Shown here piece after piece: positions 2,726-16,673 of a stretch of 64,000 bases of DNA (position 1 is the stretch's first letter; every line of letters begins with the position of its first letter). A program made the position numbers and the translations under genes. The notes beneath the pieces were generated by a model that ran no database searches, had not been told where the DNA came from, and saw only the letters and a program-made list of their open reading frames with translations. Source of the DNA: Pseudosulfitobacter sp. DSM 107133 (GTDB lineage Bacteria > Pseudomonadota > Alphaproteobacteria > Rhodobacterales > Rhodobacteraceae); assembly GCF_022788695.1 (NCBI RefSeq), contig NZ_CP085155.1:496001-560000 (forward strand). Reading direction: 5' to 3'.

Positions 2726-4071
<1,346 letters not shown>

Positions 4072-4077
4072 CAGCAG

Positions 4078-5160
4078 ATGACAAAGAAACTGGCCGTCAA
4101 AACCGATCACTGGACCGATGACGAACCGCTTGAATGTGTCTCGATCCTGCCTGAATCGCCGGATGTTGTCACAGCGTGCTTTCAGGCGCCTTCGGGGCGG
4201 GATTTCAACTTTGATGCGGGGCAGTTCGTCACGCTTGAGCTGCCAGTGCCGGGCGGGCCGCTTTACCGCACCTACACGATTTCGTCGTCGCCTTCGCGCC
4301 CCAAGTCGCTGACGATCACGATCAAGGCGCAGCCGGATTCCATCGGCACCCGCTGGATCATCGACAACCTGCGTCAGGGCATGACACTCAAGGCGATGGG
4401 CCCGGCCGGGCACTTCACCTCGTCCGTGCACCCTGCTGAAAAATATCTGTTTATCTCGGCCGGTTCGGGCATCACGCCCATGATGTCCATGACCACCGAG
4501 ATCTACGATCTGGGGCGTCCATGTGACATCGTCTTTGTCAACTGCGCCCGCAGCCCGTCGGAAATCATTTTCAAGCGTCGCCTCGAGCATATGGCCACCC
4601 GTATTTCGGGTCTGGATCTGAAATGGGTCGTCGAAAAGGCCGACATCTATCAGCCCTGGACCGGATACCAGGGGCGGTTCAACCAGCTGATGCTGGGTTT
4701 GATGGCTCCCGACTATCTGGAACGCGAAGTGTTCTGCTGCGGTCCCGAGGTCTTTATGCAATCGGTGCGCGAGGCGCTGGCCGGTCTGGGCTTTGACATG
4801 GACCATTACCATCAGGAAAGCTTCCAGGCGCCACAGCTTCCTACGATGGACAATATCGAAGTTCCCACACCCGAAGACGATCTGCCGGAAGAGCATGTTC
4901 AGGCCGAGGTGGTCTTTGACATCAGCGGTGTCACGACCAACTGCCCCGAAACCGATACTGTCCTTGCCGCTGCACGTTCGGCCGGCATTGCGATCCCGTC
5001 GGGCTGCACCTTTGGTGTCTGCGGCACCTGCAAGGTCAAAAAGAACAGCGGCGATGTGCATATGGTGCACAACGGCGGCATCACCGAGGAAGAGATCGAC
5101 GAAGGCTACATTCTCGCCTGCTGCTCGAACCCGCGCGGACGGGTCCAGCTTGACCTCTGA
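4078..5160 (+). CDS. gbcB: Ferredoxin reductase component, GbcB-like (FAD/NAD(P)H plus plant-type 2Fe-2S)
   Basis: A 360-residue electron-transfer partner for the Rieske oxygenase. An N-terminal FNR-type FAD domain (RTYTISSSPS, about residues 63-72) precedes an NAD(P)H-binding domain (FISAGSGITPMMSM). After a linker a C-terminal plant-type ferredoxin domain carries C310, C315, C318 and C348 (SGCTFGVCGTC and ACC). It passes electrons from NAD(P)H to the oxygenase. It is six bases behind gbcA and surely cotranscribed. A hairpin with a 9-bp perfect stem follows the stop. Confidence 0.88.
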   Translation: MTKKLAVKTDHWTDDEPLECVSILPESPDVVTACFQAPSGRDFNFDAGQFVTLELPVPGGPLYRTYTISSSPSRPKSLTITIKAQPDSIGTRWIIDNLRQGMTLKAMGPAGHFTSSVHPAEKYLFISAGSGITPMMSMTTEIYDLGRPCDIVFVNCARSPSEIIFKRRLEHMATRISGLDLKWVVEKADIYQPWTGYQGRFNQLMLGLMAPDYLEREVFCCGPEVFMQSVREALAGLGFDMDHYHQESFQAPQLPTMDNIEVPTPEDDLPEEHVQAEVVFDISGVTTNCPETDTVLAAARSAGIAIPSGCTFGVCGTCKVKKNSGDVHMVHNGGITEEEIDEGYILACCSNPRGRVQLDL

Positions 5161-5187
5161 GGTTGCGGCGATCTTGGGATGAAGTAC

Positions 5188-5223
5188 CAAAGCCGGGGTG
5201 GTTCTGCTGCTCCGGCTTTGTTT
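5188..5223. terminator. Terminator hairpin between gbcB and the convergent regulator
   Basis: Perfect 9-bp stem CAAAGCCGG (5188-5196) against CCGGCTTTG (5212-5220), followed by TTT. It lies between convergent genes and overlaps the stop of the leftward regulator, so it could act on the gbcAB transcript. Confidence 0.7.
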
Positions 5224-6268
5224 ATGTGTAATTGCGCAGCAGAACGCCCACGGCAGGCAGGTCCTCGCCCGCTTCGCTGTGTCCGGCCTGGGCCTTGCGA
5301 TATTCTGACGGAGTCACGCCACGCTCGGCCTTGAGCGTGCGCGACAGGTGCGGTCCATCGCAAAAGCCGCAGGCCAGCGCGACCTCGGTGATCGACGCAT
5401 CGGTTGCGCGCAGCCGTTGCAGCGCCCGTTCCAGCCGCAAATCCAGATAGACCTTGGTCGGGGTCTGATGCAGATCGGCAAGAAACCGGCGCTCAAGCGT
5501 TCTGCGCCCCACGTCCAGCGCGCGCGCCAGTTCGTCGACAGTTTTTGGCATTTCAAGATGCTGCTGCATCCGCAACACCGCACGTTTTACCAGCGCATCG
5601 GTGGCGCGTTTGGCCGAATTGTGACTGGGCTGGGGTTTTTCACCGCTCATCGCGTCGTCGATCATCATGATGTTCAGGCTTTTGATCGCGGCAGACTGGC
5701 CAACGTGTCGCTGCACAAGAAAGGCCGCCAGATGCGCCGCCCCGTGCCCGCCCGAACAGGTCAGCCTGTCCCGGTCGACCACGAAAATCTGGTCAGATAT
5801 CGGGGATTCCGCTTCGAACTGGTCCAGAAAATCCTGATGGTGGAACCAGCTGACGCAGCAGCGATAGCCCTTGAGCAACCCCGCCCGCTGCAAGATGAAA
5901 ACGCCGGTACACAACCCCACCAAGGGCACACCCGCCTCTGCCTGCTTCAGCAGGAAATCCTGTGTAGCACCGTTCAATGCGGCGCTGTCACCGATCAGGC
6001 CGCCGACCACGACGATATAATCGTACCGCCCAGCTTGTCGCAGACGCGTATCGGGTTGAACCCTGACGCCACAGCTTGAGCGGATCGATTCAAGCGTGTC
6101 CGAAAGCACCACCCAGTCGCACAGGATCGGGCGCGAGTGATCGGCCTCGTCTGCGGCCAGCCGCAGGACGTCGACAAAGTTGGCAAAGGCCGACAACGTA
6201 AAGCGGTCAGCGAGCAGGAACGCGACCCGAAGACGTTTGGTGACTGGCGGTGTGGCGGCTTTGGTCAT
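5222..6268 (-). CDS. GlxA-family AraC-type regulator with DJ-1/PfpI-like domain (GbdR-like)
   Basis: A 348-residue protein. Residues about 10-190 form a class I glutamine amidotransferase/DJ-1-like sensor domain with the elbow GLCTGVFIL. The last about 110 residues are an AraC helix-turn-helix pair (VDELARALDVGRRTLERRF, then ITEVALACGFCDGPHLSRTL). GbdR, which activates betaine catabolism genes in Pseudomonas, has this architecture, so the location next to gbcAB suggests control of betaine demethylation. It is convergent to gbcAB and lies 102 bases downstream of the aromatic operon in the same direction. Its ATG (6268) has only a weak GAAAG ribosome site. The specific effector is inferred only. 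Confidence 0.82.
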   Translation of the reverse strand: MTKAATPPVTKRLRVAFLLADRFTLSAFANFVDVLRLAADEADHSRPILCDWVVLSDTLESIRSSCGVRVQPDTRLRQAGRYDYIVVVGGLIGDSAALNGATQDFLLKQAEAGVPLVGLCTGVFILQRAGLLKGYRCCVSWFHHQDFLDQFEAESPISDQIFVVDRDRLTCSGGHGAAHLAAFLVQRHVGQSAAIKSLNIMMIDDAMSGEKPQPSHNSAKRATDALVKRAVLRMQQHLEMPKTVDELARALDVGRRTLERRFLADLHQTPTKVYLDLRLERALQRLRATDASITEVALACGFCDGPHLSRTLKAERGVTPSEYRKAQAGHSEAGEDLPAVGVLLRNYT

Positions 6269-6370: not shown

Positions 6371-6898
6371 TCAATTGGGGGCGACAGACGCCATTTGCAC
6401 CGATAGCGCCTGTATGCTGGCCTTCAGGTCCTGTTCATGACGCACCGGCAGTTGCCGCACAGACGTAACGGCGGCCTGATCCAGAAGAACATCGCGGTCC
6501 CATCCGCTGTCAGTCATGTCGCGCCATTCAACATTCAGGTGCACCCGCGTGTGATCGAACAGATGACGCAGGGCGTGGGCGGGCAATGTTGCGGCTGCCA
6601 AGACGTCCTTGGCAGGCACCGCAAGCTTCACCCTGACCGGCGCGGGCTGCGCAGCCGTACGGACAGCGGCAAGACCCTCGCTTAAACGCCGCGCAGCAAG
6701 GGCCGCACGAGCAACCGTTCGGGCCGTTTCGCTGCCCTTAGACAGGCTGCTGTCGGGCATATCGTTAATCAGGCGTGCCAGCACCGATGTCAGACGCCGC
6801 ACCGCCAGCAATTCATCCGTCGGGGCGGCAGGCGCATCATAGCGCGCGCCGCTGCCCTGCCGTTCGATCAGTGCCTTACGCGCGTCCTCCAGCGACAT
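6371..6898 (-). CDS. Maleylpyruvate isomerase-like (DinB/MDMPI N-terminal) protein with missing metal ligands
   Basis: A 175-residue protein. The sequences RQGSGARYDAPAAP, LPAHALRHLFDHTRVHLNVE and WRDMTDSGWD resemble the maleylpyruvate isomerase N-terminal-domain family found beside gentisate dioxygenases. As I recall it, the characterised mycothiol-dependent enzyme binds zinc through a His in an early helix and an E-x3-H pair near the domain end. Here those segments read ARAALAARR and DLKASIQAL, with neither His nor Glu in place. ATG 6898 is preferred over 6907 because GAGGA sits nine bases before it. It starts just inside the gentisate dioxygenase stop, implying translational coupling. Isomerisation of maleylpyruvate is the expected role from context, but activity is doubtful. 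Confidence 0.6.
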   Translation of the reverse strand: MSLEDARKALIERQGSGARYDAPAAPTDELLAVRRLTSVLARLINDMPDSSLSKGSETARTVARAALAARRLSEGLAAVRTAAQPAPVRVKLAVPAKDVLAAATLPAHALRHLFDHTRVHLNVEWRDMTDSGWDRDVLLDQAAVTSVRQLPVRHEQDLKASIQALSVQMASVAPN

Positions 6899-6903
6899 GC
6901 GGG

Positions 6904-8004
6904 TCATTCCTCGACAAATGCCGTGCGGTCGAAATGCAGTCGCTCCATGATCGGCGCATCCGAAAACTGGAACAGATCGAACGTGTCGTCCGCCTGAAGC
7001 TTGCAGCTGACCCAGGACGGGACGACGAACATGTCTCCGATGTCCAGCTTGTGTTCGGTCCCGTCCAGAACAACCGATCCCCTGCCCGAAAACACCTGAA
7101 ACACCGAAGACCCCACATCGCGCCGCGTGCGGCTGGTTGCGCCCGCGCGCAGGCGGTGGAACTGACAGCGTATGGTGGGCATGACATCGCCGCCGGTGGT
7201 GGGGTTCACAAACCGGATACCCGCGTGGCCAAGGCTGTAGGTCGCCGGCTGGCCCTCGTCTTCCAGCAACAGCTGTTCGGTCAACGCACGGTCGGTGAAT
7301 TCCCAGCGGAACGCGGCCAGCGGGCTGGAAACTGTGTCTTCCAGTTTGGACAGCGGGCGCAGTCCGGGATGGGCCCACAGCCGCTCGCCCCGGCTGAAAC
7401 GCGGGGTGGCATAGTCGGTGACGCGGTCGGAGCCGAACTCAAAGAACCCCACATCGTTCTGTTTTGAAAACGGAATATCCAGCCCGTCGATCCAGGCCAT
7501 CGGCTGGTCGGTGTCGTTGTGGTGCCCGTGGAAATTCCAGCCAGGCGTCAGCAACAGATCGCCGCGCGACATGCGCACCGGATCGCCGTTCACCACCGTC
7601 CAGACCCCTTCGCCCTCGACCACAAAGCGAAAGGCGTTCTGGGCATGGCGGTGTTCGGGCGCGGTTTCGCGGGGCCCCAGATACTGAATAGCCGCCCACA
7701 ACGTCGGGCTGACATAGGCCTTGCCACCCAGACCGGGGTTGGCAAGCCCGATGGCGCGCCGTTCACCGCCCCGCCCCACCGGGATCAGATCGCCCGAGGC
7801 TTCGGCCAGCGGCAAAAGATCTTTCCAGCGCCACACATGGGGCAACGCGGCGGGCTTGGGATGCATTGGCATCAGATCGCCCGTTTGGGTCCACAGCGGG
7901 ATCAGGTGCTGGTCCTCGAACCCCTTGTACAGCGCGCGCAGCTCGGGCGTGTCTTCGGGTTGCATCCCATGTGCCACGTTTTCATGTGTGATGTCGTCGG
8001 TCAT
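6904..8004 (-). CDS. gtdA: Gentisate 1,2-dioxygenase
   Basis: A 366-residue bicupin enzyme of usual family length that cleaves gentisate to maleylpyruvate with Fe(II) and oxygen. The N-terminal cupin has the iron ligands H118 and H120 (PEHRHAQNAFRF) and H159 (TPGWNFHGHH), with VVEGEGVWTVVNGD between them. A second cupin lies at about residues 270-350 (VFQVFSGRGSVVLDG, IGDMFVVPSW). The start has an AAGGAG site. It lies between the fumarylpyruvate hydrolase gene upstream and the isomerase-like gene downstream, the expected neighbours of the gentisate pathway. Confidence 0.92.
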   Translation of the reverse strand: MTDDITHENVAHGMQPEDTPELRALYKGFEDQHLIPLWTQTGDLMPMHPKPAALPHVWRWKDLLPLAEASGDLIPVGRGGERRAIGLANPGLGGKAYVSPTLWAAIQYLGPRETAPEHRHAQNAFRFVVEGEGVWTVVNGDPVRMSRGDLLLTPGWNFHGHHNDTDQPMAWIDGLDIPFSKQNDVGFFEFGSDRVTDYATPRFSRGERLWAHPGLRPLSKLEDTVSSPLAAFRWEFTDRALTEQLLLEDEGQPATYSLGHAGIRFVNPTTGGDVMPTIRCQFHRLRAGATSRTRRDVGSSVFQVFSGRGSVVLDGTEHKLDIGDMFVVPSWVSCKLQADDTFDLFQFSDAPIMERLHFDRTAFVEE

Positions 8005-8030: not shown

Positions 8031-8726
8031 TCAGACAGCGGGGCCGATTGTGGTTGTCAGATCGCCCAGCCCGTCAATGGACACCACACAGATGTCACCG
8101 GCGACCAGCGGTCCGACACCCGCAGGGGTGCCTGTCATGATGATATCGCCCGCCTTCAGCGCAATCGAATGGGAAATGATCGAGATCACCTCGGGCACGG
8201 TCCAGATCAGCTCGGACAGATCCGCCTCTTGTTTGACCGCACCGTTCACCGTCAGCCGGATCGCCCCCGCCGACAGGTGACCCACATCGCTGACCCTGTG
8301 CAGCGCGGCCATGGGCGCCGAACGGTCAAAAGCCTTGCCCCAATCCCACGGCCGCCCCTTTTCGCGCGCGTCCAGTTGCAGATCGCGGCGGGTCAGATCG
8401 TTGCCGACACCATAGCCATAGACATGGTTCAGCGCCTCAGCTTCTGCGATATTCACACCATCCGTGCCGATGGCAACGATCAGTTCCGCCTCGTAATGGA
8501 AATTTTCCGTTTCGGGGGGATAGGCCACCGTTTCACCGTCTTGCACCACAGCGTCTGCGGGCTTTGTGAAAAAGAACGGCGGATCGCGGTCGGGGTCTTT
8601 GCCCATCTCGATGGCATGCGCAGCATAGTTGCGCCCCACGCAAAAGATGCGGCGGATCGGAAAGCGCAGCGCATCACCTGTGACGGGCAGGCTGGGCGTT
8701 GGCATGGGATCAAAAACAAAAGTCAT
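8031..8726 (-). CDS. Fumarylacetoacetate hydrolase-family protein, probable fumarylpyruvate hydrolase
   Basis: A 231-residue FAH-fold enzyme. FCVGRNYAAHAIEMG (about residues 28-42) and the metal-binding E79-x-E81 (FHYEAELIVAIG) with D110 (GNDLTRRDLQ) match the short single-domain FAH hydrolases, and TGTPAGVG closes the fold. In a gentisate pathway the product would be fumarate plus pyruvate. ATG 8726 is chosen because AGGA precedes it at eight bases and homology begins there, although the frame stays open upstream to 8963. It ends 26 bases before gtdA. Confidence 0.86.
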   Translation of the reverse strand: MTFVFDPMPTPSLPVTGDALRFPIRRIFCVGRNYAAHAIEMGKDPDRDPPFFFTKPADAVVQDGETVAYPPETENFHYEAELIVAIGTDGVNIAEAEALNHVYGYGVGNDLTRRDLQLDAREKGRPWDWGKAFDRSAPMAALHRVSDVGHLSAGAIRLTVNGAVKQEADLSELIWTVPEVISIISHSIALKAGDIIMTGTPAGVGPLVAGDICVVSIDGLGDLTTTIGPAV

Positions 8727-8779: not shown

Positions 8780-9496
8780 TCAATCGCGACCGGCTTCGAT
8801 GATTTTCTCTGCCAGCAATTCGGGATTGGTCAGAAATGTCGAATGGCTGCCGGGCATCGACACAAGGCGGTAAAGCCCCAGCTTTTCGGACAGGCGCGGG
8901 TGCCACGGATAAGAGGCAGGCAGCGCAATGTCTTGTTGCATGTGCAGATAGCTTTTGCCGCAATCAAATTCGGCGGGTGATTTAGACAGCACGATCTTGT
9001 CCGCCATGGTGCGATAGGGATGCGGCACAAGATCGGCCATGTGTTTTTCCACAGTGGCAAGATCGGCATCGTTCATAAACGCTTCGCGCAGGATCGGGAG
9101 CGGGAAGCCCACAGTTCCCGTGGCGGCGCCCATTTCGTCAAACATGGCGACATAATGCGGCGGCACCATGTCCAGCAGGCTTTCGCCGGGGTTCGGCACA
9201 AAGGCAGAGTAATAGATCAGGCGACGGATCTTGCCAGCTGGCAGCTTGTCATAGGCACCGGTAATGGCCATCCCGCCCCAGCTGTGCCCCAGCAACACCA
9301 CGTCATCCATATCTGCAAGCACATCGACAAGGCTGTCGATGGCATCGGCAAGCGTGATCTCTGCGGGGTTATCGCCCGCCCGGTTGCCCGCAAGCGTCGG
9401 ACAGGTCACCTGATGGCCCGCGCCGCGCAGCAAATCCGCCACTTTTTCGAAATGGGCGCCTGTGTGCGCTGCGCCATGTACCAATACAAATTTCAC
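8780..9496 (-). CDS. Alpha/beta hydrolase (methylesterase/hydroxynitrile lyase-like)
   Basis: A 238-residue single-domain alpha/beta hydrolase. It begins VKFVLVHGAAHTGAHF (oxyanion strand), has the nucleophile elbow GHSWGG with S72, and ends with a catalytic His candidate in PGSHSTFL. GTG 9496 is taken as start because GGAG lies seven bases upstream; the upstream open stretch has no homology. It sits in the aromatic operon between the fusion enzyme and the FAH gene. If the pathway passes through CoA thioesters, a gentisyl-CoA thioesterase is needed and no hotdog thioesterase is visible, so this enzyme is a candidate by elimination. Ester hydrolysis of a salicylate ester is an alternative. Confidence 0.78.
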   Translation of the reverse strand: MKFVLVHGAAHTGAHFEKVADLLRGAGHQVTCPTLAGNRAGDNPAEITLADAIDSLVDVLADMDDVVLLGHSWGGMAITGAYDKLPAGKIRRLIYYSAFVPNPGESLLDMVPPHYVAMFDEMGAATGTVGFPLPILREAFMNDADLATVEKHMADLVPHPYRTMADKIVLSKSPAEFDCGKSYLHMQQDIALPASYPWHPRLSEKLGLYRLVSMPGSHSTFLTNPELLAEKIIEAGRD

Positions 9497-9558: not shown

Positions 9559-12303
9559 TCAGGCAGGGATGCGCATGAATTCAGCCTGCGCCAAAGCCTG
9601 GCGGTCAATCTTGCCGGTGCCGGTCTTTGGCAGGCTGTCGCGATAGTCGATGATCCGAGGATATTTGAACGGTTGCAGCCGCTCTTTCACGAAAGCCTTG
9701 ATAGAGGCATCAGAGGCTTTGCCCGCTGTAATCCCGTCACGCAGACAGACCACCGCGCGCAGGGTCATACGCTTGTCGTCCAGCTCATGTGCCAGCACCG
9801 CGCATTCATGAATGTCGGGGTGTTCGGCCAGACATTTTTCGACCTCGCCGGGCCAGACCCATTGCCCCGACACCTTGATCAGCTCATCAGCGCGCCCCTG
9901 AAAATAGTAGTAGCCATCGCGTTCGATGAACCGGTCACCGGTATAGATCCAGTCGTCGCGCATGGTGTCGCGGGTTTTGTCGGGGCGGTTCCAATACTGC
10001 GGGGCCGAGGATTGGCCGCGCACATACATCACCCCCTCTTCACCCGGCTGCGCGGGCACGCCTTCGGGTGTCAGCAGCTTGATCTCATAACCCGGAACCC
10101 GCGCGCCTGCGGCCCCCAGCCGGTGATCCTCCAGACTGTTGGACAGGTAGATGTGCAACAACTCGGTGGAACCAAGCCCTTCGGTGGGTCCGTGTCCGGT
10201 CAGTTGTTTCCATGTGGTGTACACATCCGCCGACAGGATTTCTGCGGCAGACATGCTTTGACGCAGTGACGAAAAATCAGCCGAAACCGCGCGCGGGTGA
10301 TGGGCCAGCGCGGTGAACAGCGTCGGCAGGCCGAAGAACACCGTGGGCTTGTACGTCTCGATGGCGTCAAGCACCGCATCGGGCGTGGGCTTGCCCGACA
10401 TCAGCACCGTGGTTGCCCCGACCGAGAAGGGAAAGGTGACAGAGTTGCCAAAGCCATAGGCAAAGAACATCTTGGGCACCGAAAAACAGATGTCGTCGGG
10501 GGTCAGCTTCAGCACCTGCGCGCCGAACGACTGGTGGGTATAGGCCATGTCGTGATGCAGGTGGACGATCCCCTTGGGGCGGCCTGTCGAGCCAGAGGAA
10601 TACATCCAGAACGCCATATCGTCAGGGCCGGTGTCGCAACAGGCCAGTTCGGTCGGCTGGCCTGCCAGAAATGCATCGGCAGGCACCACAGCCGCGCCAT
10701 CGCCGTGGCCATTCACCGAAATCACAGTGGTCACGTCGGTGCCCTCCAGCACCTGCGGGCCAAAATGGTCGGCAAGATCGGCCTCGCACAACGCCATGCG
10801 CGCGCCGGTGTCTTTCAGGAAAAAGTTCAGCGTTTCCGCGGGGGTCTGGGTGTTCAACAGCACCGGAACAAACCCCGCCCGCACGGCACCGAAAAAGGCG
10901 GCAACATAGGCTGGCGTATCGTTCATGAAAAACGGGATGCGTTCGCCCCGCGCCAGTCCCGCTGCCTTGAACGCATTGCCCCACTGGGCGGCTTGGGTAA
11001 TCAATTCTTTATAGCTCACAGCCCCCGCCGCGCCGATCACCGCAGGTTTGTCAGGATTGCGCGTCAGGTTCTGCCACAGCACATCGGAACAATTGGGGTG
11101 CGCGGATTTATCAAACCCGATTTCGCGCGCGCCTGGTGTGTCGTTGCTGAGAGGATCGACAATCACAGCCGCAGCTTTCTCGGCCTCATACCGTCGCGCG
11201 AACTCGGGCGAGAGTTTGCGCAGACGCGCCATATCAACACGCCCCGATCGGGTGACATAGTCAAAGGCAAAGTCGATCGGCGCCTTGTCCATCTTGGCAT
11301 CAAACGTGTCATACCAAGTGGCCGAGGTATTGGCGGCATCGACGATCTTTTTCGCTAGGGGCAAACGGGCCGCCTGATAGGCCGCCAACCCGTCTTGCCA
11401 ATCCGCATGTTCGGACAGCGCCTGAACCAGCGCGATCACATCCTCAAACGCCAAACGGGTGCCGGAGCCGATTGAAAAATGCGCCGTATGGGCCGCGTCG
11501 CCAACCAGCACATAGCGGTCATAGACCCATGTGGGGCACCACATGCGGGGAAACTGCCGCCAGATGGATTTGTTGGTAATCAGCCTGGCCCCGTCCAGCA
11601 CATCGGCAAACAGGTCTTCGCACAGCGCCGCACTGGCCTCCTCGCTCATGGTGTCAAAGCCATAGCGCTGGAATGTGGCGTCGCTGCATTCGACGATAAA
11701 GGTCGAACGATCCGGCGAAAACCGGTAGTGGTGCGCGTTCATCGCCCCCTTTGGCGTGCGGATAAAGCTTTGGGTCAGGGTATCAAACGCACGGGTCGCC
11801 CCGAACCAGGCGAAATGGCAATTAAAGCTTTCGATCTGGGGCGCGAACCGGCTTTCAAAGGTTTGCCGCACAAGCGAATTCAGCCCGTCCGCCCCCACCA
11901 CAACGTCAGCGTCCAGCGCCGTGATATCGTCAATGCGGGCGTCGAACCTGATGTCTATCCCCAGGCCTTGCGCATGTTTTCGCAGGATTTCGATCAGCTC
12001 CAGCCGCCCCAATGCGGTAAATCCGATGCCATCCAGCGTCACGGTGTCATCGGGCAGGTTCAGTGTCATGTTCTGCCAGCGCTCCATATGCGGCAGCACC
12101 AGATCGTGAATTTCGGGATCGGCGGCCTTGAGAAACCCAAGCGCCTGATCCGAAAAAACCACTCCAAAGCCAAAAGTCGCGCCTTCGGGGTTCTGTTCAA
12201 AAACGGTCACTTCGACCTGCGGCATTTTGCGACGCATCAGGATCGCGGCATACAGACCGGCAGGCCCGCCGCCGACTATTGCCATGGTTTTCAGCTTGGA
12301 CAT
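9559..12303 (-). CDS. Fused salicylyl-CoA 5-hydroxylase-like flavoprotein and aryl-CoA ligase
   Basis: A single 914-residue frame. Residues 1-375 are a class A flavin monooxygenase: VGGGPAGLYAA (10-20) for FAD, DADVVVGADGLNSLVR (131-146) and YVLVGDAAH (264-272). Residues about 400-914 are an AMP-forming aryl-CoA ligase: YSSGSTGRPKG (568-578), GSTE (711-714), YTGD (787-790), GRADELIKVSGQWV (803-816) and the A10 lysine K898 in PKTGTGKIDR. The ligase resembles benzoate/2-aminobenzoate-CoA ligases. Upstream of gentisate dioxygenase this suggests salicylate to salicylyl-CoA to gentisyl-CoA on one polypeptide, steps done by separate SdgA and SdgC proteins in Streptomyces. Anthranilate is an alternative substrate. 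A GGAGGG site precedes the ATG, and the gene heads the operon. Confidence 0.85.
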   Translation of the reverse strand: MSKLKTMAIVGGGPAGLYAAILMRRKMPQVEVTVFEQNPEGATFGFGVVFSDQALGFLKAADPEIHDLVLPHMERWQNMTLNLPDDTVTLDGIGFTALGRLELIEILRKHAQGLGIDIRFDARIDDITALDADVVVGADGLNSLVRQTFESRFAPQIESFNCHFAWFGATRAFDTLTQSFIRTPKGAMNAHHYRFSPDRSTFIVECSDATFQRYGFDTMSEEASAALCEDLFADVLDGARLITNKSIWRQFPRMWCPTWVYDRYVLVGDAAHTAHFSIGSGTRLAFEDVIALVQALSEHADWQDGLAAYQAARLPLAKKIVDAANTSATWYDTFDAKMDKAPIDFAFDYVTRSGRVDMARLRKLSPEFARRYEAEKAAAVIVDPLSNDTPGAREIGFDKSAHPNCSDVLWQNLTRNPDKPAVIGAAGAVSYKELITQAAQWGNAFKAAGLARGERIPFFMNDTPAYVAAFFGAVRAGFVPVLLNTQTPAETLNFFLKDTGARMALCEADLADHFGPQVLEGTDVTTVISVNGHGDGAAVVPADAFLAGQPTELACCDTGPDDMAFWMYSSGSTGRPKGIVHLHHDMAYTHQSFGAQVLKLTPDDICFSVPKMFFAYGFGNSVTFPFSVGATTVLMSGKPTPDAVLDAIETYKPTVFFGLPTLFTALAHHPRAVSADFSSLRQSMSAAEILSADVYTTWKQLTGHGPTEGLGSTELLHIYLSNSLEDHRLGAAGARVPGYEIKLLTPEGVPAQPGEEGVMYVRGQSSAPQYWNRPDKTRDTMRDDWIYTGDRFIERDGYYYFQGRADELIKVSGQWVWPGEVEKCLAEHPDIHECAVLAHELDDKRMTLRAVVCLRDGITAGKASDASIKAFVKERLQPFKYPRIIDYRDSLPKTGTGKIDRQALAQAEFMRIPA

Positions 12304-12349: not shown

Positions 12350-12368
12350 TATTGCGTAATGCGCAATA
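12350..12368. promoter_or_regulatory. Perfect dyad between the aromatic operon and iclR (candidate IclR operator)
   Basis: TATTGCG-TAATG-CGCAATA is a perfect 7-5-7 inverted repeat, 46 bases before the fusion-gene start. A further half-like TATTGC occurs just to its left at about 12339. The position is suitable for control of the leftward operon by the divergent IclR protein. Confidence 0.55.
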
Positions 12369-12569: not shown

Positions 12570-13367
12570 ATGGCACGCGACACAAAGGACATGACTTCAG
12601 GCGGAGGCATTCAATCGCTTGATGCGGCGCTGCGCGTGCTGGCGGTAATGGCGCAACACGACAGCCCGATTTCGCTGACCGATCTTGCACGCGCCGCAGA
12701 CATGCCCCCCAGCAAGGTGCACCGTTATCTGGCGTCATTCCTGAATGCGGGTCTTGTGATGCAGGGCGGGCGGTCGGGCAAATACGATCTGGGGCGCGGG
12801 TCTATCGACCTTGGTCTGGCGGCCCTTGCTCGGCACGATTTTGTCAACGGGCCGTCGGGCGAACTGGCAGAGCTGCGCGAAGACACCGGCCTGACCGTGC
12901 TGCTTTCTGTCTGGGGCGCAAGCGGGGCCACCGTGGTCAGGTGGGAGCGTGCTGCATCGCCCATTGTCACCTCGATGGGTCTGGGCACGACGCTGCCGCT
13001 GCTGAATTCATCAACCGGTCGGGTGTTTCTGACCTATGGGGCGCAGCCGCCTATGGAAAAGGCGCTGAAAACCGAATTGCTGCGTGCGCGCAAAGCTCCA
13101 GAGATCATGCCCGATTTTCCCGCGACCCAGGCAGGCATCGCAGCACTTGTCGCCTCGGTGCGTGGGCGTGGCTATTCCACTGTTCAGGGCGATTTCATTC
13201 CCGGACTGGTCGCTGTTGCCGCGCCGATACTGGATTGGCAGGGCGAGGCGCAGGCCGTGATTACCCTGATCGGGACAAGTCGGGACGTGATCCGCGAAGG
13301 ATCAGACGAAGTGCGCAAACTTCTGGATTTCTGCAAGGCGCATTCCTTTTCGGACATTGGTGAATGA
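12570..13367 (+). CDS. IclR-family transcriptional regulator
   Basis: A 265-residue protein of normal family length. The N-terminal winged helix is clear (GIQSLDAALRVLAVMAQ, LTDLARAADMPPSKVHRYLA, about residues 12-60), followed by the IclR effector domain (LPLLNSSTGRVFL, GYSTVQGDFIPGLVAVAAPI). ATG 12570 is chosen because AGGA lies five bases upstream; the frame is open to 12432 but that stretch shows no homology. Divergent from the gentisate operon, it is the likely pathway regulator, probably sensing an aromatic acid or CoA thioester. The effector is inferred. Confidence 0.86.
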   Translation: MARDTKDMTSGGGIQSLDAALRVLAVMAQHDSPISLTDLARAADMPPSKVHRYLASFLNAGLVMQGGRSGKYDLGRGSIDLGLAALARHDFVNGPSGELAELREDTGLTVLLSVWGASGATVVRWERAASPIVTSMGLGTTLPLLNSSTGRVFLTYGAQPPMEKALKTELLRARKAPEIMPDFPATQAGIAALVASVRGRGYSTVQGDFIPGLVAVAAPILDWQGEAQAVITLIGTSRDVIREGSDEVRKLLDFCKAHSFSDIGE

Positions 13368-13456: not shown

Positions 13457-14839
13457 TTACTTCAGCCCTTCGGCCTGCGCCCATTCCAGCGTCCGGTCCA
13501 GAGCTTTGCCCAGTTTTTCCAGCAACTCATCAATCTGCGCCTCGGTGATGATCAGCGGCGGGCAAATGCCGATGGTTTCATAGATGTTGCGGATGATCAG
13601 ACCCTCTTCGGCGGCAAATTTGGCCGCCATGGCGCAAATCTTGCCGGCCGGTTCGAAGGACGCCTTGGTCGCCTTGTCGCGCACCAGTTCGACGCCCGCG
13701 ATCAGGCCAATGCCGCGCACTTCGCCCACCAGCGGGTGATCGGAAAACGCGCGCAGCCCCGATTGCAGCCGGTCTGCCAGACGGGCAGCGTTGCCCATCA
13801 GGTCGTCTTCCTGAATGATGTTCAGGTTCTCGATGCCCACGGCACAGGCCACGGGGTTGCCACCTGCGGTAAAGCCATGACCCAGCGTGCCCAGTTCGGC
13901 GGTGTAATCCGCGATGATCTGGTAAACTGCATCGGTCATCAGAATTGCGGCCAGCGGCATATAGGACGAGGTCAGCTGTTTCGACGTCACCAGAATATCG
14001 GGGGTGAAACCATAGGTCTGGCAACCGAACGGCTGGCCGGTGCGGCCAAAGCCGTTGATGACCTCATCCGAGACCAGCAGGATGTCATACTTGCGGCACA
14101 GCGCCTCGATGCCCGGCCAGTAGCCTTCGGGCGGGGTCATGACGCCACCGGCACCCATCACCGGCTCGCCGATGAAGGCCGCGATTGTATCGGGATCTTC
14201 GGCCAGAATGGTGTCTTCGGCCTCTTTCAGCAGACGCGCGGTGAACTCGGTCTCGCTCTCGCCCTCATTGGCCCAGCGGTAGTGGTGCGGGCAGGTCAGA
14301 TGCACGACGGGAATCGCCGGCAGGTCAAAGCCGCGCTGGTTGCCCGGCAAGCCGGTCAGCGAGCCCGAGGCGATGGTGATGCCGTGATAGCCCTTGTTGC
14401 GGGCCAGGAATTTCTTTTTCTTCGGGCGGCCCAGCATGTTGTTCATGAACCAGACGAATTTGACGACCGTATCGTTCGCCTCTGAGCCCGAGTTGGTGTA
14501 AAACACTTTCGTCAGATGCTCGGGCGTCATTTCCACCAGCTTTTCGGCCAGCAGGATACCCGGCGCGTGCGCCTTGTGGGCAAAGTTCTGGATATAGGGC
14601 AGTTCGGCCATCTGCTTGGCCGCCGCCTCGACCAGACGCGGCTGCGAAAAGCCCACAGCGACCGACCACAGGCCCGCCAGACCTTCGAGGTATTTCTTGC
14701 CCTCGCTGTCATAGACATAGCAGCCCTCACCCTTAGTGATAATCATCGGGCCCTGCTCTTCATGCACCCGCGCATTGGTGTAGGGGTGCAGCTGATAGGC
14801 AATGTCGGTTTCTTGCAGCGAGTTGGAACGCGTGTTCAT
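13457..14839 (-). CDS. Class III PLP aminotransferase (omega-amino acid/putrescine type)
   Basis: A 460-residue fold-type I aminotransferase of the aspartate aminotransferase-family class III group. Visible are the cofactor-binding TNSGSEAND (residues 115-123), YHGITIASGSLTG, the Asp contact VSDEVINGFGRTG (about 256-268) and the Schiff-base lysine K287 (ILVTSKQLTSS). Members transfer amino groups from omega-amines such as putrescine, beta-alanine or GABA to pyruvate or 2-oxoglutarate. AGGA precedes the ATG at a good distance. It is the third gene after the GntR regulator and the deacetylase-like gene, so a polyamine released by deacetylation is a sensible substrate. Confidence 0.85.
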   Translation of the reverse strand: MNTRSNSLQETDIAYQLHPYTNARVHEEQGPMIITKGEGCYVYDSEGKKYLEGLAGLWSVAVGFSQPRLVEAAAKQMAELPYIQNFAHKAHAPGILLAEKLVEMTPEHLTKVFYTNSGSEANDTVVKFVWFMNNMLGRPKKKKFLARNKGYHGITIASGSLTGLPGNQRGFDLPAIPVVHLTCPHHYRWANEGESETEFTARLLKEAEDTILAEDPDTIAAFIGEPVMGAGGVMTPPEGYWPGIEALCRKYDILLVSDEVINGFGRTGQPFGCQTYGFTPDILVTSKQLTSSYMPLAAILMTDAVYQIIADYTAELGTLGHGFTAGGNPVACAVGIENLNIIQEDDLMGNAARLADRLQSGLRAFSDHPLVGEVRGIGLIAGVELVRDKATKASFEPAGKICAMAAKFAAEEGLIIRNIYETIGICPPLIITEAQIDELLEKLGKALDRTLEWAQAEGLK

Positions 14840-14881
14840 TTTGGCTTCCTGTAGGTCAGAGCGGCATAGGGCGCGCCCGTT

Positions 14882-15916
14882 TCAGAACTGCATGTCCCGT
14901 CCGGTGTATCCGGCCAGAAATGCAACAAGTGATGTTGTCAGGTCCGGCGAAAGATATCCGCCCTCCTGAACCAGTACTGTCGGCAGACCGGCGGCGGCAA
15001 TCATCGCACCCGCGCGGGCAAAGCCATCGAAGGTGACCAGCAACCCTTTGAGGGGGTCGTTTTCGTGGGCATCCAGCCCCAGACTGACAACCAGCGCATC
15101 AGGCTTGAATGCGGCGACGCGGTCAAGCCCTGTGGCGACAGCTTTGCACCAGCCATCGTCGCCGGTGCTTTGCGCCAGCGGGATGTTCAGGTTGAAGCCC
15201 TTGCCCGCACCCCGCCCCGTTTCGTGATCGTAGCCCACGAAAAAGGGGTAATAGGTTTCCGGCGTTGCGTGGACCGAGACAAACAGAACGTCGTCGCGTT
15301 CGTAAAAAATGTCCTGCGTGCCATTGCCATGGTGCACGTCGATATCCAGCACCGCGACCCGTCCATGGGTTTCGCGCAGGGTTTCGGCGGCAACGGCGGC
15401 GCAGTTGATCATGCAGTGACCCGCGACGATATCCGCCGAACTGTGGTGCCCCGGCGGACGGCAAAGCGCATAGGCCACAGCGTCGCCGCCCAACACCGCC
15501 TGCGCCGCATCGTGGGCTGCCGCCGCAGCGCCCAGTGTCGCCTGCCACGAATGCTTGCCCAATGGCGCGGATGTGTCACCCATGTGCCAGCCGGCCTTGC
15601 CCACGATATGTTTGGGATAGGTGCGCTCCGTGTTCAGCGCATGGACGTTCGGCACCACCTCGGGGCCTGACCCTTCCAGCGCCTTCCATTCGTCCCATCC
15701 GGTTTCCAGAAACCGCAGCAATTCCGGCGTGTGGACCTTTTCCAGCAGCGCACGGGGCACCTCGCCCGGCTCGGTTACGGGCATGTCCAGCCGGTCCAGC
15801 CCGGCCAGCAACAGCCGCGCCCGTTCGGCCTGTTCGGCGTTGCGCGCCATGTTTCCCATATACAGACGAAACGCGGGGTCATGCGCCTCGGTCTTTTTGG
15901 CGTAAAAGCATTTCAT
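14882..15916 (-). CDS. Histone deacetylase-fold amidohydrolase (acetylpolyamine amidohydrolase-like)
   Basis: A 344-residue zinc amidohydrolase of the arginase/deacetylase superfamily. The characteristic pieces are RPPGHHSS (catalytic His pair), AGHCMINCAAVAA, the zinc-binding LDIDVHHGNGTQD, and the second zinc aspartate in LGLDAHENDP. Bacterial members deacetylate acetylpolyamines or related amides. Its ATG overlaps the GntR stop by four bases, and the aminotransferase follows 42 bases downstream. The order suggests removal of an acyl group, then transamination of the freed amine. Exact substrate unknown. Confidence 0.88.
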   Translation of the reverse strand: MKCFYAKKTEAHDPAFRLYMGNMARNAEQAERARLLLAGLDRLDMPVTEPGEVPRALLEKVHTPELLRFLETGWDEWKALEGSGPEVVPNVHALNTERTYPKHIVGKAGWHMGDTSAPLGKHSWQATLGAAAAAHDAAQAVLGGDAVAYALCRPPGHHSSADIVAGHCMINCAAVAAETLRETHGRVAVLDIDVHHGNGTQDIFYERDDVLFVSVHATPETYYPFFVGYDHETGRGAGKGFNLNIPLAQSTGDDGWCKAVATGLDRVAAFKPDALVVSLGLDAHENDPLKGLLVTFDGFARAGAMIAAAGLPTVLVQEGGYLSPDLTTSLVAFLAGYTGRDMQF

Positions 15917-16608
15917 TCCGCCTTGCCCTCTTGCTGGTCATAAAAATGCTGTGTCACCAAGTCTTTGGCGACGCGAATGTGATAGTCGATGGCTGCCGCC
16001 GCGGCATCCGCGTCTTTCTGTTCAATCGCTTCGACAATCGGGTCATGGGTTTCGGCCATCTTGTGCGCGTCGTCATACAGCCGCCCGATCACCAGCAAGC
16101 CCAGCTTTGTCTCGTTCGCGATCTGGTCGAACAATTGCAAAAACCGCAGGTTGCCCGAGTATTCGCAAATCAGCCGGTGAAACTGCATATCCGCCGAGAC
16201 ATGGGCCATCAGATCGGCACCTTCATCCACCAGTCGGTAAAGCTCTGCTACCTGTGCCCGCAGGGCAGGCAGCGCGGCATCGGCGTTGGTGTCGGTCAGC
16301 CGCCGAACGGCTGCGGTTTCAAGCAGGATGCGCAGTTCGTAAAGGTCCGAGACCGACACCGCCGATACCGCCTTGACGAAAAAGCCGCGATTGGTCCGGT
16401 ATTCGACCAGCCCCGAGGATTCCAGCAACCGCAGCGCCTCGCGCACGGGGGCGCGGCTCAGGTCCATCTGGCGGGCAATCTGCGATTCGGCCAACCGCGC
16501 GCCCGGCGGGATGCGCCCTGACAAAATCGCGTCCACCAATGTCTTGGCAACCCGATCCACCAGTCCGTCACGGGTGAGGGGAACAAATCCGCCGTGCTCA
16601 GCCAACAC
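15913..16608 (-). CDS. GntR-family regulator (FadR/FCD subgroup)
   Basis: About 231 residues. The N-terminal winged helix has DAILSGRIPPGARLAESQIA and MDLSRAPVREALRLLESSGL; the C-terminal FCD effector domain is helical with metal-site-like motifs (LYELRILLETAAVR, FHRLICEYSGN). GTG 16608 is preferred because GGAG lies six bases upstream; GTG 16620 is the alternative and adds four residues. It is the first gene of the leftward deacetylase-aminotransferase operon and divergent from the aldolase-ABC operon, so it may control both. A TTGTCGACAA palindrome lies 73 bases upstream. Confidence 0.84.
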   Translation of the reverse strand: MLAEHGGFVPLTRDGLVDRVAKTLVDAILSGRIPPGARLAESQIARQMDLSRAPVREALRLLESSGLVEYRTNRGFFVKAVSAVSVSDLYELRILLETAAVRRLTDTNADAALPALRAQVAELYRLVDEGADLMAHVSADMQFHRLICEYSGNLRFLQLFDQIANETKLGLLVIGRLYDDAHKMAETHDPIVEAIEQKDADAAAAAIDYHIRVAKDLVTQHFYDQQEGKAE

Positions 16609-16673
16609 CCTGTTCTCCACTGTCCAGCATTGCCCAAATCCCCAGCGTTACCCCTGTTTTAGTAATTGATGAT

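Follow-up and report, generated by a model that had tools for sequence, protein, structure and literature searches.

An open reading frame of 914 codons on the minus strand of contig NZ_CP085155.1 of Pseudosulfitobacter sp. DSM 107133 (assembly GCF_022788695.1) encodes a flavin adenine dinucleotide (FAD)-dependent hydroxylase and an aryl-coenzyme A (CoA) ligase in one polypeptide. The stretch analyzed, hereafter the window, comprises 64,000 nucleotides (contig positions 496,001 to 560,000, forward strand), and gene coordinates below are window positions. The frame runs without interruption from an ATG at 12303 to a stop at 9559; it opens its operon, and an IclR-type regulator lies divergent upstream. 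An earlier reading of the letters alone (the sequence-only reading) had recognized FAD-monooxygenase motifs followed by AMP-ligase motifs in this frame, and Pfam confirmed both, placing FAD_binding_3 (PF01494) at residues 8–323, AMP-binding (PF00501) at residues 410–771 (E 1.8e-73) and AMP-binding_C (PF13193) at residues 820–898. The family motifs of both domains are intact, and K898, which that reading had singled out, lies within a TGTGK motif and is unvaried across an alignment of 19 fusion proteins. The gene divides as follows.

11179..12303, minus strand: FAD-dependent hydroxylase domain, CehH-like (residues 1–375; PF01494)
11089..11178, minus strand: connector of 30 residues (376–405), containing VDPLSNDTPGAREIGF and corresponding to the N-terminal extension of split CehG ligases
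9559..11088, minus strand: CoA ligase domain, CehG-like, benzoate-CoA ligase family (residues 406–914 plus stop; TIGR02262, PF00501, PF13193)

The ligase part passed the benzoate-CoA ligase family model TIGR02262 over residues 407–905 (466.7 bits, cut-off 375.25). Its nearest solved structures are benzoate-CoA ligases (4rlf, 4eat and 2v7b), to which it aligns over its length and which differ from it in being stand-alone enzymes; the anthranilate-CoA ligase structures 4wv3 and 5oe3 were also among its matches. The FFAYG and GSTE.LHI region of 4rlf is common to the window ligase in this alignment, and likeness at these positions, which we take to be the benzoate pocket of 4rlf, does not settle the substrate. 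On NF006101, the model for bifunctional salicylyl-CoA 5-hydroxylase/oxidoreductase, the window protein scored 385.4 bits, under the cut-off of 1078, and matched through its hydroxylase part only (profile positions 3–386). The hydroxylase is thus related to that type as a distant relative (40%), and the partner domain there is a flavin oxidoreductase, not a ligase. A structure predicted for the fusion from 19 sequences had good local confidence (mean predicted local distance difference test score 80.1), while its predicted template modelling score of 0.49 made the placement of the domains unusable.

A missed stop between residues 375 and 400, named in the sequence-only reading as one thing that would undo the fusion, was looked for and not found: these residues are stop-free in the reading frame, and an assembly slip was ruled out likewise, an equal fusion being present in many separate records. 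A search of 5.8 billion proteins at E <= 0.001 gave 7303 matches, and all of the best 120 listed (893–928 amino acids, 65–94% identical, query coverage 98–100%) carried both domain sets; the full-length search that had been proposed for two-domain proteins therefore returned at least 120 of them. In the databases these fusions are unnamed or mostly called 'benzoate-CoA ligase family protein'. Genome contigs were scanned with the fused query, taking the best 80 of 487 matches together with plasmid loci and further genomes. This yielded 100 adjoining hydroxylase/ligase pairs, near-copies among them, of which 72 were fused (the window, locus L001, included) and 28 were classed as split, a ratio tilted toward fused forms because ranking had been by match to a fused query. 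Since all of the best 120 listed matches and 72 of the 100 collected pairs form one frame, the two-domain frame is confirmed as a genuine fusion, neither chance nor a sequencing error. It is not the singular arrangement that it had first been taken for.

The true splits number 27, L111 having been classed as split by script while being a fused copy with a frameshift. This copy (L111:4989-7729), on a Rhizobium beringeri plasmid, is broken by the frameshift and carries two gene annotations, and the copies on other Rhizobium plasmids are intact.

The fusion gene is widespread yet patchy. In an even draw of 385 genomes of the class (E <= 1e-105), one was fused (the window's own) and 13 had a separate CehG-type ligase gene, adjoined by the hydroxylase in 11 of the 13. 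Among 61 near relatives, own genome included, the fusion occurred in two (own and G010) and a split pair in one (G032), and none of the five other genomes of the genus had a full-length match to the fusion. A description of a hydroxylase–ligase fusion was not found in the open-licence literature, which does not establish its absence from print.

The nearest named relatives of the two parts are two adjoining genes. On the Agrobacterium tumefaciens plasmid NZ_CP048525, cehH (salicylyl-CoA hydroxylase) and cehG (salicylyl--CoA ligase) together match the window protein at 65.2% identity across 99% of the query, and on the Salipiger abyssi plasmid NZ_CP015090 adjoining cehH and cehG, in that order, are together 64.1% identical, again over 99% of the query. 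The Agrobacterium record also has cehI (gentisyl-CoA thioesterase) and an IclR regulator divergent from cehH/cehG. These gene names reportedly go back to work on Rhizobium sp. X9 by Zhou and colleagues in 2021; in that salicylate route, CehG acts as the ligase, CehH as the hydroxylase and CehI as the thioesterase. Homology of both parts, gene order, an IclR regulator and gentisate-pathway genes nearby all link the window to the CehH/CehG/CehI route. It differs in that one 914-codon frame replaces two separate polypeptides, no close cehI occurs in the genome, and an alpha/beta hydrolase gene lies in the operon. From this homology, the window protein would be a fused CehH-CehG, a variant of a known two-protein system rather than something unique.

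The sequence-only reading had proposed a salicylyl-CoA route on the pattern of Streptomyces. The route is probable, given that cehH and cehG are the names on the nearest named split homologues, and the closest comparator found is the alphaproteobacterial CehH/CehG pair. In Streptomyces sp. WA46, SdgA is the ligase and SdgD the gentisate dioxygenase. Compared by description only, the SdgA/SdgC/SdgD system has the same proposed chemistry via salicylyl-CoA and gentisyl-CoA but consists of separate proteins in an actinobacterium. The gene sdgC is cited in PMC13215587.

The order of the domains, hydroxylase first and ligase second, had been remarked on as the reverse of the reaction order. The order itself is confirmed and needs no special explanation: all 27 true split pairs have the hydroxylase gene first and the ligase second on one strand. 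Our initial pairing admitted only this order, and a later check sought the hydroxylase anywhere and on either strand in each split locus; no reversed order was found in any of them. Two further CehG-type ligases (L123 and L125) have no hydroxylase within ~1.5 kb. Among the 27 true splits, the nearest candidate start of the ligase, which is not a proven start, lies across the hydroxylase stop in nine, mostly as ATGA, and follows a gap of 3–15 nucleotides in six more. The split clade of the named type has gaps of 83–107 nucleotides at seven of nine junctions, with 14 at L107 and 33 at L055, and the overlaps fall in nine other split rows. As the split genes already adjoin in this order, losing the stop and shifting the frame is all that fusion requires, and most simply the hydroxylase-first order was inherited from a tandem cehH-cehG through loss of the stop and restart. 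The domain order carries no information on the reaction sequence.

The connector was examined in the same loci. A segment of the D.V...EIGF type was detected by pattern in 55 of 72 fused rows, in 24 of 28 rows classed as split and in both lone CehG-type ligases, the strict pattern missing 17 fused and four split-classed rows; by eye, a related segment is present in 26 of the 27 true split ligases, L010 being the exception. The same pattern search found it in none of 31 other aryl-CoA ligases, a set to which the PDB proteins do not belong. A fusion-specific linker was thereby ruled out, since the segment also begins split ligases. By sequence likeness, the connector appears to be the ligase's own N-terminal extension, and its conservation in both the fused and the split state points to some function, which may be docking to the hydroxylase.

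Phylogenetic trees suggest that hydroxylase and ligase have several times been joined and parted in evolution. A 97-row tree of both parts (near-copies L109, L078 and L110 left out) requires at least six fused/split changes, all forced by starred branches, where the star denotes the Shimodaira–Hasegawa-like approximate likelihood ratio test (SH-aLRT) alone. A bootstrapped tree of 52 rows, hand-picked from the 97 for spread and made without L069, L113 and the longest branches (L010, L126, L096, L122 and L083), requires five changes, all forced, and a single change is allowed by 0% of 200 bootstrap trees. Fused rows stand amid split rows in Betaproteobacteria plus Acidiferrobacteraceae (L098–L100, L102 and L105) and in Bradyrhizobium archetypum (L086). 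The split pairs akin to those named cehG/cehH (L055, L061, L063, L064, L095, L106–L108 and L112) form one clade with support 100/100 in the 52-row tree, and its nearest sisters are fused (99/93 and 100/98). Because they are nested inside a fused radiation, the named pairs are probably fissions. In the hydroxylase-only tree the named clade is nested likewise on starred branches, with mostly split rows near the base, and in the ligase-only tree it is nested with unstarred support of 89–92. The ancestral state is unsure, because the betaproteobacterial fused clade branches off ahead of most split rows in the ligase-only tree (support 81).

Change in one direction only, whether many fusions without fission or one ancient fusion followed by many fissions, is unlikely. 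It draws some strength from change counts that are unrooted and hold fusion and fission equally easy, so that they cannot separate gain from loss, and from the single fused genome, the window's own, in the even draw of the class; the split rows near the hydroxylase-tree base also favor it, yet the early betaproteobacterial fused clade of the ligase tree does not. When the trees are rooted on the Bradyrhizobium split rows, a rooting of our own choice, a fusion-only history needs 12 fusions with 52 rows or 15 with 97, and one fusion with fissions only needs eight or 13 fissions, whereas mixed change needs five or six switches. The fused sisters of the well-supported named clade also speak against it, and mixed fusion and fission is the simplest history. 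The greater interest of the finding lies in this apparent repetition of fusion and fission. The family holds the same two catalytic steps as one and as two polypeptides, with several switches and close relatives on either side, and lends itself naturally to testing whether flux, CoA-ester leakage or stability change when an acyl-CoA ligase is fused to the consumer of its product.

Homology and the neighboring genes make it probable that the fusion is a bifunctional enzyme of salicylate catabolism whose single polypeptide carries out two steps, from salicylate to salicylyl-CoA and on to gentisyl-CoA. The C-terminal ligase would convert salicylate, ATP and CoA into salicylyl-CoA, and the N-terminal FAD hydroxylase would use NAD(P)H and O2 to hydroxylate it at C5, giving gentisyl-CoA. 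A thioesterase, perhaps the alpha/beta hydrolase encoded by the next gene, would free gentisate, which would then be degraded by the cupin dioxygenase, the isomerase and the FAA-family hydrolase of the operon. We infer the substrate, the reaction order and the hydrolysis of gentisyl-CoA. Fusions that are named 'benzoate-CoA ligase' or left unnamed can have their annotation corrected, since a hydroxylase is present in them too and salicylate is their probable substrate. Salicylate is a plant signal compound. According to an abstract (PMC5141477), it is also an intermediate of carbaryl breakdown.

That the fusion heads a gentisate operon, as the sequence-only reading had it, holds as to its position, and the operon is probable from the families of the neighboring genes:

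8780..9496, minus strand: alpha/beta hydrolase, 238 amino acids, GTG start (PF12697); candidate gentisyl-CoA thioesterase or methyl-ester hydrolase
8031..8726, minus strand: FAA-hydrolase-family protein, probable fumarylpyruvate hydrolase, 231 amino acids (PF01557, E 1.1e-57)
6904..8004, minus strand: bicupin ring-cleavage dioxygenase, probable gentisate 1,2-dioxygenase (cupin domains; TIGR02272 best NCBIfam model)
6371..6907, minus strand: probable maleylpyruvate isomerase, 178 amino acids; its ATG overlaps the dioxygenase stop (ATGA)
12352..12366, unstranded: 15-bp perfect palindrome TTGCGTAATGCGCAA, possible operator, between the IclR gene and the operon near a TATAAT
12570..13367, plus strand: IclR-type regulator, divergent (PF09339, PF01614; start picked by eye)

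The isomerase gave no Pfam match and is 42% identical to an L108 protein annotated as 'maleylpyruvate isomerase N-terminal domain-containing'. A loose form of the palindrome pattern occurs three times in the 64-kb window, and clear conservation of TTGCGTAATGCGCAA was not found in relatives.

The operon recurs. In a context table of 71 loci with at least 1.5 kb upstream and 3.5 kb downstream, where a homologue was counted anywhere in the locus and fused and split loci were summed (L111 among the split, L114 and later loci left out), IclR was present in 58, CehI in 43, the dioxygenase in 42, the FAA-family protein in 38, the isomerase in 31, MaiA in 30, a TAXI-type TRAP transporter in 17 and the alpha/beta hydrolase in seven. 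The alpha/beta hydrolase resembles PDB 6tj2, pyrethroid hydrolase, hydroxynitrile lyases and SABP2 (plant salicylic-acid-binding protein 2), the last of which has methyl-salicylate esterase activity. Judged by these resemblances, it could release gentisate from gentisyl-CoA or, upstream, salicylate from methyl salicylate. As a replacement of CehI it received no support from co-occurrence, a CehI homologue being present in three of seven clusters with the alpha/beta hydrolase versus 40 of the 64 lacking it (Fisher p 0.42). Locus L045, with a flank too short for the 71-locus count, has both, and 11 clusters with the dioxygenase have neither nearby.

Several observations weigh against salicylate as the substrate. 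The names cehG and cehH are annotations, and in an NCBIfam scan no hidden Markov model so named matched the three proteins. The cupin scored 259.2 bits on the gentisate 1,2-dioxygenase model TIGR02272, under the cut-off of 442.1, and a homologue of it lies close by in only 42 of the 71 loci, 29 having none. A close CehI is missing from the window's genome, where the best match reaches 26% identity (E 2e-4). Finally, a protein of the same genome, L003, passed NF006101 (1304.1 bits), which bears out the hydroxylase–flavin oxidoreductase fusion mentioned in the sequence-only reading; given L003, the window protein may serve an acid other than salicylate. Characterized members of the hydroxylase/oxidoreductase type act on 2-aminobenzoyl-CoA, and if L003 does so too, the L003 and window systems divide the work. 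Because of L003, the cupin score and the 29 loci without a dioxygenase, we lowered our confidence in the salicylate assignment slightly, and it still stands as probable.

L003 lies with L004 at G000:C1:2572003-2579062, where an aryl-CoA ligase is ~4.5 kb away from the hydroxylase/oxidoreductase.

The same two steps on anthranilate, with anthraniloyl-CoA hydroxylated at C5 and the cupin cleaving a 5-hydroxyanthranilate-like product, would be the next reading, an improbable one. The distant kinship of the hydroxylase with the 2-aminobenzoyl-CoA type and the anthranilate-CoA ligases among the structure matches agree with it, as does a match of the cupin to the 5-aminosalicylate dioxygenase model (212 bits, under the cut-off of 650); but the gentisate model outscores that match (259 versus 212), for each domain the nearest relative with a name is a salicylyl-CoA enzyme, and L003 is already there for such a role. 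A still smaller chance attaches to 3-hydroxybenzoate or benzoate, the matching CoA ligase feeding hydroxylation to gentisyl-CoA. The ligase does match the benzoate-CoA ligase family model and, far under the cut-off, the HbdA model (364.5 of 1000 bits), and in a Marivivens paper a benzoate-CoA ligase near tyrosine-type genes is assigned, by annotation, to 3-hydroxybenzoate hydroxylation (PMC11278965). Against it, the closest split homologues are named cehG/cehH; the pocket region shared with 4rlf does not decide.

Two Sulfitobacter loci, L069:7001-10975 and the plasmid locus L113:4740-8712, have a stand-alone CehH-type hydroxylase directly before a full hydroxylase–ligase fusion. The stand-alone hydroxylase keeps 140 and 139, respectively, of 140 invariant positions (defined in an alignment of 19 sequences, the window protein included) and groups with the split clade. 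In the fused hydroxylase, 9 of 139 such positions have changed; its branch is long, and its place among the fused rows is unresolved. The ligase has changed at a single one of 195 invariant positions and falls within the split clade. Between L069 and L113, the ratio of nonsynonymous to synonymous divergence (dN/dS, NG86) was highest in the fused hydroxylase at 0.28, compared with 0.08 in the free hydroxylase and 0.06 in the ligase, on few amino-acid differences (19, six and one, respectively). Synonymous divergence (dS) was lower in the ligase, 0.013 versus 0.085–0.088, which hints at recombination. The loci look like half-way fission or re-fusion, with constraint relaxed on a redundant domain. 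That one domain is a passenger, leaving effectively a ligase or a hydroxylase only, may fit these copies with their second hydroxylase, their lost positions and their raised dN/dS, but is very improbable for the window protein, as it retains the invariant positions (partly by construction, being among the 19 defining sequences), its operon has no second CehH-type hydroxylase, and many working-looking distant relatives differ at more of these positions (up to 33) than the Sulfitobacter copies do.

A fuller account of the fusion is conceivable but rather doubtful. The fused CehH-CehG would be a channelling enzyme that arose through repeated stop loss where the two genes overlapped, its partners pre-docked by the conserved N-terminal segment of the ligase; the named two-protein system would be a later fission, and the Sulfitobacter loci, with their free and their fast-changing fused hydroxylase, would be half-way or re-fused.

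In three marine metagenome-assembled genomes (L068, L075 and L077), another aryl-CoA ligase stands immediately upstream of the fusion. A hydroxylase/oxidoreductase-type frame of 768–803 codons is divergent on the same contig, placing two aryl-CoA hydroxylation systems side by side.

No Rfam family reached its gathering score within the 64-kb window. At 2767–6268, it holds a Rieske-type oxygenase and a ferredoxin/reductase-like gene (plus strand, by eye) and a GbdR-like AraC regulator (minus strand, under the model cut-off), a cluster that resembles what are presumably glycine betaine demethylation genes. On one strand at 13457–16620 are a pyridoxal phosphate-dependent aminotransferase (passing PRK06105), an acetylpolyamine/histone-type deacetylase look-alike (by eye) and a GntR-type regulator, perhaps genes of polyamine catabolism.

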